From positions 1-43,711 of the forward strand of contig JASHNR010000025.1 of the NCBI GenBank assembly GCA_030041535.1: a DNA stretch of 43,711 bases. Reading direction: 5' to 3'. The DNA comes from Nitrosopumilaceae archaeon. Its GTDB lineage: Archaea; Thermoproteota; Nitrososphaeria; Nitrososphaerales; Nitrosopumilaceae. The notes below the pieces were generated by a model. That model was not told where the DNA came from and did no database searches. It saw only the letters and a program-made list of their open reading frames with translations. This document shows positions 26,906 to 29,831 of this stretch, one piece after another. The number at the start of each line of letters is the position of its first letter. Position 1 is the stretch's first letter. A program made the translations under genes and the position numbers.

Positions 26906-27826
26906 CTATTTGTTTCTACCCTTTTCTAACTTTCCTGCAAGTAGCATTGGTACTTCGGCAGGTCTCTTGGCAACAGGTACGTTTGCCTTGGCATACATGG
27001 ATACTTTGGACTCTGCTGACCCATATGTTCCATAAATTATGGCCCCTGCATGACCCATCCTCTTCTCTTTTGGAGCTGCGCGTCCTGCAATGTATGCTAC
27101 AACAGGCTTGTCAAACTTGGTATCAATAATATGCTGAGCTAGCATCTCTTCGGCATCGCCACCTATCTCTCCTACAACAACTACGCCGTCTATGTTGGCT
27201 CCACTTCGAATTGTGTCAAATGCCTGTATCAGGGGTGATCCATTAATGGGGTCTCCACCTATTCCAAAACAGATGCTCTGACCAAAATTTGCAAGTGAGA
27301 GATTGTTAGATACTTCATACATGAGAGTACCACTTCGTGAAAGCACGGCTATTCTTCCAGGCTTGAATGGAGATGCTGGCATGATTCCAATCTTGATAAT
27401 TCCGGGTATTATCACTCCAGGGGTATTTGGCCCAACCACTATTGCATCATTCTTTTTTGACAATTCTACTACTGCTAATGCATCTTTTATCGGTACATGT
27501 TCTGGAATTGCAATTAACAATTTGATTCCAGCCTCAAGTGCTTCAACTGCGGCGCTGAGGAAAAACTTTGCAGGAACAAAGATTATTGAAATTTTTGCAC
27601 CAGTTGCACCTACTGCCTCTTTCATGTTTTCATAAATTGGAACTCCTTCAAACTTTTGTCCGCCTTTTCCAGGAGTAACTCCGGCAACTATGTTTGTGCC
27701 ATATGCCAGCATTTGCTGTGTATGCAACGATCCAAATTTTCCAGTAATTCCCTGCACAATCACTGGCTTTTTCTTGTAGTCTTTTTCTCCTTCCTTGCCA
27801 ATTAATAGTTCAAAAAGATCAGCCAT
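26906..27826 (-). CDS. sucD: succinyl-CoA synthetase alpha subunit
   Basis: A 306-aa subunit with an N-terminal CoA-binding Rossmann domain (VQGITGKFGSLHTQQMLAYG, VAGVTPGKGG) and the ligase domain containing the phosphorylated His in RMGHAGAI. With SucC it forms succinate + CoA + ATP from succinyl-CoA, or the reverse. Its start overlaps the sucC stop by 8 nt, implying translational coupling. In ammonia-oxidising archaea this would serve the incomplete TCA cycle linked to carbon fixation, which is general knowledge rather than read here. Confidence 0.96.
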   Translation of the reverse strand: MADLFELLIGKEGEKDYKKKPVIVQGITGKFGSLHTQQMLAYGTNIVAGVTPGKGGQKFEGVPIYENMKEAVGATGAKISIIFVPAKFFLSAAVEALEAGIKLLIAIPEHVPIKDALAVVELSKKNDAIVVGPNTPGVIIPGIIKIGIMPASPFKPGRIAVLSRSGTLMYEVSNNLSLANFGQSICFGIGGDPINGSPLIQAFDTIRSGANIDGVVVVGEIGGDAEEMLAQHIIDTKFDKPVVAYIAGRAAPKEKRMGHAGAIIYGTYGSAESKVSMYAKANVPVAKRPAEVPMLLAGKLEKGRNK

Positions 27827-28931
27827 TTTTATTTACCTCGATTACTGCTGCATTTATTGCTTCTTCAATGGTATCGAACATTTTTGTTCTAGAGCCCTTC
27901 AGCATCTCTTTTGATTTATCTGCCTCTGCACCTGACATTCTTGCAAAGACTGGCACGTCGACCAGTTTGGCATCATATGCTTTGATAAAGGCGGTTGCAA
28001 CAGTTGTTGTTTTGACAATGCCGCCATAAAGATTTACAAGTATGCCTCTGACTTTTTTCATTTTACTAATAAGAGTAAGTGCTTCATACACTGTATCAGT
28101 TGTTGCTCCTCCACCAACATCAAGAAAACATGCTGCCTTTCCTCCGTTATCAGATAGCATGTCTAATGTAGACATGACAAGACCTGCTCCATTGCCCACT
28201 ACGGCAATGTTGCCATCAAGCTCAACTAGTGAAAAGCCGCTTTTTTCAGCACGCTCCTCAAGTTCTGAAACTTCTTGGAATTTGCGTAACTCATCATGTC
28301 TGAACATGGAATTGTCATCAATTATCATTTTGCCATCTAATGCAACAAGTGAATCATCCTTTAACACTGCAAGAGGGTTGATTTCAGCCAACTCTGCTTC
28401 CTTTTCTACTGTAACTTTGGATAATCTTTGAAGTATGTCAACAAATTGTGCCAGTGCCTTGTCCTTTAGTCCCATTTCTTTACCGATTTCTTCTGCGACT
28501 TTTGCGTCAACCATTCCTAATCCTACTTCGTGTATTATCTGGTTCTTGACAGCCTCTATCTCTACTCCTCCTTCTGATGAGGATATTACTGTGTAACACC
28601 TCTTACTTCTGTTCAAAAACAATGAAAGGTAAAGTTCTTTTTTAATATCGGCCATTTTTTCAAGTAGGATTGCCCTTGTTTTTTCACCCTTGACTACTTT
28701 TTGCATGATCTCTGGATATTTTAATTCAAACTCGTCTGCATTGTGGCACTTTTGAATGGCTCCTGCTTTTCCTCTTCCGCCCACTGCCATCTGTGCCTTG
28801 ATCACAAATGGAAAACCAAGTTCTGAGGCTTCTTTTCTACCTTGTTCTATGGTAGTAGATGTCAATCCTTTAGGAATTGGGATTCCGTAATCTGCAAATA
28901 ATGACTTGGCTTGATATTCAAGTAAACGCAT
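27819..28931 (-). CDS. sucC: succinyl-CoA synthetase beta subunit
   Basis: A 370-aa subunit: ATP-grasp domain at residues 1-225 (LLEYQAKSLFADYGIPIPKG, VIKAQMAVGGRGKAG, ALAEINPL-type AELAEINPLAVL) and a C-terminal CoA-ligase domain (CFLDVGGGATTDTVYEAL, GILVNLYGGIVKT). Nucleotide specificity (ATP or GTP) is not decided by what I can see. ATG 28931 has a TATA-like TTATAAAG about 25 nt upstream, so it is leaderless. First gene of sucC-sucD-eL40. Confidence 0.96.
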   Translation of the reverse strand: MRLLEYQAKSLFADYGIPIPKGLTSTTIEQGRKEASELGFPFVIKAQMAVGGRGKAGAIQKCHNADEFELKYPEIMQKVVKGEKTRAILLEKMADIKKELYLSLFLNRSKRCYTVISSSEGGVEIEAVKNQIIHEVGLGMVDAKVAEEIGKEMGLKDKALAQFVDILQRLSKVTVEKEAELAEINPLAVLKDDSLVALDGKMIIDDNSMFRHDELRKFQEVSELEERAEKSGFSLVELDGNIAVVGNGAGLVMSTLDMLSDNGGKAACFLDVGGGATTDTVYEALTLISKMKKVRGILVNLYGGIVKTTTVATAFIKAYDAKLVDVPVFARMSGAEADKSKEMLKGSRTKMFDTIEEAINAAVIEVNKNG

Positions 28932-29218
28932 GGAAAGATTTCATTTTTATGGTCTTTATAATCTGTATGTAAAGTCCTGTCGATATTGCACCCACCAAAT
29001 CCAATAATGGCAGGTTCTGTCTCTTGTCTTGGTTCAGTTTGATTATCCGTCTTATTTTTTGATACTGTTTTGTATTGTAAAATATTTGCCTGACCGTTTT
29101 TTTTGACTTGTTGTTGTATCTACCTTGGATTTGATGCATCAATGTTTGTTGTAGTATATCATAAGACTAGAATTTTATGATAAGGAGAGTTAAAAATAGC
29201 ATAATTTGATTTAGTAAT

Positions 29219-29280
29219 GTTTTGGAGTAAAAGACCAGGCAAGAGGGTGTCCTAACGGGCACTCGGTCGTACTCCAAAAC
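29219..29280 (+). ncRNA. candidate structured non-coding RNA
   Basis: A 62-nt element that folds into one long arm: a perfect 11-bp base helix (29219-29229 with 29270-29280), a 3/1 internal loop (AAA/G), a 4-bp helix GACC/GGTC (29233-29236 with 29265-29268), an eight-nt bulge AGGCAAGA, an 8-bp helix with two G-U pairs (29245-29252 with 29257-29264) and a TAAC tetraloop. A TATA-like GTTAAAAAT is centred about 26 nt upstream, so transcription would start at the first paired base. A T-rich run (TTCTTAGTTTTA) follows the 3' end. It does not match tRNA, C/D, H/ACA or a riboswitch class I know. The strand is inferred from the promoter. Confidence 0.55.
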
Positions 29281-29462
29281 ACTTACAATTCTTAGTTTTA
29301 TGAGCCAATCAAGATGAAATAAACATACCGTTGAGATTAAATTTTGTTGTTTTTTACAAATTTATAAACTTTTTACAACATTTCTATAGTTTATCTCGCG
29401 CTCAATTCTAATAATCTACACATTTGATATAAAACAAAAACCACATTGAACAGGTCCAATGC
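29281..29462. other. AT-rich intergenic stretch
   Basis: No gene seen. It contains the T-rich end after the RNA candidate and the promoter of gene 29463 (TATA-like GATATAAAAC about 25-30 nt before the ATG). The other side, 28932-29218, is likewise without a supported gene; a minus-strand ORF of 74 codons at 28918-29142 overlaps the sucC promoter and is not credible. Confidence 0.4.
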
Positions 29463-29831
29463 ATGAAAATACCGGAATTCTGCGATCTGATACTTTCCGT
29501 GGATAAAAAAATTCGCTACGTCGGGGTGTATCATAACGAGAATGTATATCATAAATTACAAAAAAATGTAAAAAGCTATTTTACAAATGAGGAAAGTATG
29601 ATATCGGTAAAGACTGAGGTTGCAAGGGCATCCATGCGCAGATACATGGTAGAAAAATTAGGCGAACCCATATTTTCAATTACTAAATATCCGAAAGTTA
29701 CCCTGGTAACTTTGTATTGTATGGTGACAAATCTTGTATTGTTAAGTATCGAACCTGATGTAAATCCTGATGATGTAATAAACAAAGTATTGGGCATGAT
29801 AAAAACACATGGCGATTCATTAGAACCATAG
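29463..29831 (+). CDS. DUF6659-like (roadblock/profilin-like) protein
   Basis: A 122-aa protein with the layout of gene 3938: helix FCDLILSVDKKIRYVGVYH, a middle helical segment with ARASMRRYMVEKLGEPIFSI, then hydrophobic strands KVTLVTLYCMVTNLVLLSIE and a closing helix (DVINKVLGMIK). This fits the archaeal DUF6659 family better than its paralog does. Molecular role unknown; these small folds often form dimers that sense or scaffold. Leaderless by TATA spacing. It lacks the inverted-repeat element that precedes 3938. Confidence 0.75.
   Translation: MKIPEFCDLILSVDKKIRYVGVYHNENVYHKLQKNVKSYFTNEESMISVKTEVARASMRRYMVEKLGEPIFSITKYPKVTLVTLYCMVTNLVLLSIEPDVNPDDVINKVLGMIKTHGDSLEP

Follow-up and report, generated by a model that had tools for sequence, protein, structure and literature searches.

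Nitrogen-regulated small RNAs of bacteria, cyanobacterial NsiR4 among them, are controlled by the same transcription factor as ammonium assimilation. NsiR4 differs from the archaeal RNA described here in being served by bacterial sigma promoters and NtcA sites, and we know of no likeness in sequence or structure between RNAs of the NsiR4 type and ours. Within the archaea, sRNA154 of Methanosarcina mazei is the nearest functional parallel, with no homology claimed: it is an intergenic RNA tied to nitrogen status, folds into stable stem-loops and leaves conserved segments exposed (PMC5867862). It comes from another phylum, is linked to nitrogen fixation and acts by means of two loops. The present RNA, in contrast, is a single arm with a bulge and has a promoter pattern in common with an ammonium transporter. 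In the accessible parts of its description, Tan1 of marine group II Euryarchaeota appears as an abundant stand-alone archaeal non-coding RNA outside the model species, from another lineage and with no link to a nitrogen promoter (PMC5069720). A literature survey of mostly open papers and no preprints found neither a regulatory small RNA in Nitrosotalea or ammonia-oxidizing archaea nor a nitrogen-responsive promoter element in ammonia-oxidizing archaea.

The RNA lies in a stretch of 43,711 nucleotides from a Nitrosopumilaceae archaeon (contig JASHNR010000025.1, hereafter the window), whose genome belongs to Nitrosotalea, a genus of acidophilic ammonia oxidizers. The original prediction placed a hairpin in a gene-free gap of about 530 nt, and the gap measures 531 nt, from the end of sucC (27819-28931, reverse strand) to a 122-aa ORF that starts at 29463 and is followed by a 109-aa ORF and then ileS. 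The hairpin occupies 29218-29281 on the forward strand, with an arm of 62 nt. Minimum-energy folding of 29189-29292 gave -35.7 kcal/mol, compared with a mean of -17.8 for shuffled sequences (z = -5.7), and none of 200 shuffles equalled it. The arm is built on helix 1 (29218-29229 paired with 29270-29281), which had been described as a perfect 11-bp helix and turned out to be one pair longer, at 12 bp. All the other predicted elements were recovered by the same fold: a 3/1 internal loop (29230-29232/29269), helix 2 (GACC at 29233-29236 with GGTC at 29265-29268), a single-stranded bulge AGGCAAGA (29237-29244) that is near-invariant among homologs and is proposed as a contact surface, and the 8-bp helix 3 (29245-29252/29257-29264, spanning 29245-29264), which caps the arm with a TAAC loop (29253-29256). 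The predicted T-rich stretch after the last pair is there in moderate form, and a clear terminator was not established. In most homologs a block resembling TAGTATAATTGCATTATG is found 3' of the RNA, for example after L009:1613, and is inverted together with it. The window copy lacks this block, which may be a 3' end mark or a second site.

Upstream of the hairpin lies a TATA box, TTAAAAAT (29190-29197), whose first base lies 29 nt upstream of the first paired G (29219), in agreement with the predicted coincidence of transcript start and first paired base. Among the homologs described below, 25 of 26 copies keep 29-30 nt between the TATA start and the first paired base, and two leaderless-looking genes with the same promoter pattern, amt and a Cas4-like gene, have their ATG 31 nt from the TATA start. 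We therefore predict a transcript start at 29219, to within about 2 nt. The TATA box is preceded by the 7-nt spacer AGGAGAG (29183-29189), which, from what is known of archaeal promoters, lies in the BRE position and which has the same length at the amt and Cas4-like promoters. Adjoining the spacer is a 26-bp palindrome, TATCATAA-GACTAGAATT-TTATGATA (29157-29182), conserved in the form TATCATAA-N10-TTATGATA at a fixed distance from TATA and presumably the site of a dimeric transcription factor. This palindrome, its sharing with amt and the Cas4-like gene and the restriction of the RNA to one genus are what the present analysis adds to the original prediction. The RNA type of palindrome and TATA also precedes the gene of an unrelated secreted-looking protein of about 95 aa (L060, L068 and L080, in genomes G012, G024 and G014). 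This protein has no Pfam match and occurs in only three of the 37 Nitrosotalea genomes, always behind an RNA-type promoter.

The original description, a structured RNA of no recognised class that has an archaeal promoter of its own, was borne out, since it matched no Rfam family or tRNA while structure, promoter and spacing are kept in 25 genomes. No Rfam 15 family reached its gathering cut-off anywhere in the window, and when the locus and two homologs were scanned permissively, only chance-like matches below threshold came up: SCARNA7 (30 bits against a cut-off of 65), mir-4878 (17 against 100) and CRISPR-DR22 (13 against 50). The SCARNA7 score was rejected as an AT-rich chance match under the cut-off. 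ARAGORN reported no tRNA or tmRNA gene in the window, and direct reading of 29218-29281 revealed neither box C (RUGAUGA) nor box D (CUGA) of a C/D box sRNA.

A sequence search of the genus gave DNA matches to the RNA in 24 of 37 Nitrosotalea genomes. We then built a covariance model from 19 copies, leaving out the window copy and L012, in both of which MAFFT had misplaced the bulge. With this model, 26 copies were found in 25 of the 37 genomes (E-values 1e-12 to 1e-20; 77 bits for the window copy), including 15 of the 19 genomes of good quality. One genome (G026) contributes two copies of the locus (L016 and L025) with identical neighbours, which probably represent two strains mixed in one assembled genome. 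When all 26 copies (22 distinct) were realigned to the model, standard pairs filled 97.3% of the base-pair cells and changes on both sides were seen at four pairs. The covariation score was 0.157, compared with 0.112 for shuffles, and was reached by none of 500 shuffles; with the partners slid by 1-3 columns, only about 30-51% of the cells remained paired and the score did not exceed 0.077. An alignment fitted to the model somewhat favours the structure, and the MAFFT alignment gave a similar result; nearly every copy also folds independently into the same arm. Compensating changes, which the original prediction had proposed as a check on its three helices, are present in helices 1 and 3 and missing from helix 2. 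In helix 1 (nine modelled pairs, 95.9% of cells paired) one pair alternates between A-U and G-C in seven distinct sequences, in helix 3 (98.1%) three pairs changed on both sides, and in helix 2 (98.9%) the variation is between A-U and G-U only.

Conservation follows the boundaries of the proposed elements. Pairwise identity is 0.95 in the left half-site, 0.86 in the right half-site, 0.95 in the TATA box, 0.77 in the hairpin and 0.94 in the bulge AGGCAAGA, within which GGCAAGA is identical in all 26 copies. It is lower outside: 0.33 before the palindrome, 0.52 in the spacer between TATA and hairpin, and 0.52 and then 0.34 downstream.

The RNA is limited to one of 66 genera in a covariance-model search of 400 genomes of the order, which did not find it in the other 65 genera sampled. 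A laxer search of 15 genomes from other genera and 10 Nitrosotalea genomes lacking the RNA gave best scores of about 20 bits, which is chance level. A structured pattern run over the GTDB genome collection matched 19 contigs, including the complete N. devanaterra chromosome (LN890280.1); where the contig titles name a genus it is Candidatus Nitrosotalea, and the others say only Thaumarchaeota. Among viral contigs a 15-nt pattern gave 26 scattered matches and the structured pattern none, so that we see no sign of a viral carrier. Several complete Nitrosotalea genomes are without the RNA, which is therefore not essential. In three genomes of the genus the sucC-ileS gap still holds the palindrome but no hairpin (L161:3004, L162:2807 and L165:2949), which suggests that the hairpin was lost secondarily in them. 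In L165 the middle part of the 122-aa ORF follows the promoter directly, the arrangement expected after a deletion.

Between the ileS-109-aa side and sucC, the unit of promoter and hairpin lies in opposite orientations in two lineages, which marks the RNA as a stand-alone gene and not a leader of sucC or ileS. A riboswitch or attenuator in front of sucC or the 122-aa ORF would be a rival reading. In its favour, one lineage has sucC on the same strand, beginning 230-310 nt downstream, and in the other the 122-aa ORF lies downstream. We consider it very unlikely: the two lineages carry the entire unit in inverted orientation and with different downstream genes, at L020 and L021 the first gene found downstream is not sucC, and the promoter travels with the hairpin. 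A short leaderless peptide encoded in the hairpin region is harder still to credit. An ATG at 29217 does open a frame of 12 codons in the window, and the bulge contains an ATG in one lineage, but the spacing between fixed anchors is not constant (16-20 nt ahead of the bulge and 17-19 nt behind it, with differences of 1-2 nt or more) and no frame is kept; with reading frames broken by indels of 1-2 nt, the RNA is taken as non-coding. We are highly confident that 29157-29281 is a stand-alone small-RNA gene.

The combination of palindrome and TATA at the fixed distance of 7 nt has exactly three matches in the window genome, all without mismatches: the RNA locus, C40:64875 and C40:68153. Reversed-pattern controls had no match in 37 genomes. 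The gene behind C40:68153 encodes an ammonium transporter (amt; PF00909, 7e-107), and the one behind C40:64875 encodes a 248-aa protein, divergent from a PII gene (PF00543, 4e-21) and weakly similar to Cas4 (TIGR00372, 6e-5, below the cut-off). The genes beside the latter we take, from sequence and context, to be amoB, amoY and amoZ. Orthologs of the Cas4-like protein (L160:6940-7686 in the window genome, on C40; L159:5297-6046; L240:4093-4842; L241:6605-7354) are 71-76% identical across species and a sister genus and lie beside probable AMO subunit genes. A signal-peptide-like start and the PII/AMO neighbourhood make the amt of the window genome fit Amt2. In N. devanaterra, PII adjoins the high-affinity Amt2, which is transcribed more than 10-fold above the other Amts (PMC4836417). 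A relaxed palindrome gives sister sites of the form TATCATAAAA-N6-TTTTAGGATA in most Nitrosotalea genomes. The sister genus carries the same sites 63 nt upstream of its amt and Cas4-like starts, with no hairpin; the sites of these two genes thus occur outside Nitrosotalea as well, and the RNA seems to have been added within that genus.

These matches bear the marks of a nitrogen-related promoter site, the pattern of the RNA being common, in this genome, only to amt and the Cas4-like gene beside PII, and both of these genes presumably respond to nitrogen here. On the strength of the shared promoter pattern, the RNA quite likely belongs to the same regulon as amt. A different reading accepts the RNA gene as real and assigns its palindrome to a paralogous regulator, with no co-regulation with ammonium uptake. 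The right half-sites do differ consistently, TTATGATA at the RNA (the full palindrome) as against TTAGGATA at amt and the Cas4-like gene, the BRE/TATA sequences are not the same either, and in three genomes the RNA-type site stands before the secreted protein. We nevertheless regard this reading as improbable, because the left half, the N10 spacing and the 7-nt distance to TATA are all alike, and because the genome has only three such places and the controls none.

The mechanism that we infer, covering transcription, the identity and sign of the factor, the response to ammonium and antisense action, would run as follows. A dimeric transcription factor would bind the palindrome at 29157-29182, probably as an activator since the site abuts BRE/TATA, and would switch on the RNA together with the amt2-type transporter gene and the Cas4-like gene beside PII, so that the RNA would be produced as ammonium uptake is induced in the cell. 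Transcription would begin with the first base of the hairpin. Stability would come from the stems, and the exposed near-invariant AGGCAAGA bulge would do the work, most likely by pairing with target mRNAs and altering their stability or translation. Taken by itself, action by pairing through the bulge is about an even bet. A conserved complement of the bulge was not found near glnA starts at 30 genome loci, nor, at the loci examined, near the starts of amt, PII, the AMO-neighbour genes and the window genes.

The lack of such a complement makes protein binding a serious rival, in which an RNA gene of the same regulon would act through its bulge as a sponge or scaffold and not on mRNA. It would agree with a bulge that is invariant in sequence and with helices that vary in sequence and keep their shape. 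The absence of a target is weak evidence, as a handful of candidate targets were scanned, and the RNA carries one motif, unlike multi-site sponges; we give protein binding a lesser chance, though a real one. A bolder reading is rather doubtful: acidophilic ammonia oxidizers might have an ammonium-response circuit of their own, with the hairpin as its RNA arm and a single regulator driving amt2, the Cas4-like gene and the RNA, and the bulge may work by a new mechanism, for example by binding directly to the Cas4-like protein or to some other partner. Overall we lean slightly towards a small RNA of the ammonium regulon that acts through its exposed bulge, most likely by mRNA pairing. Promoter sharing and conservation across the genus make it a candidate ammonium-responsive regulatory RNA specific to Nitrosotalea.

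Ammonia-oxidizing archaea are major nitrifiers in acid soils. The locus offers two things at once, both testable in cultured N. devanaterra: a defined RNA family whose start site is predicted, and a small candidate regulon of three genes centred on the high-affinity ammonium transporter. The shared site could also serve as bait for an archaeal nitrogen regulator.
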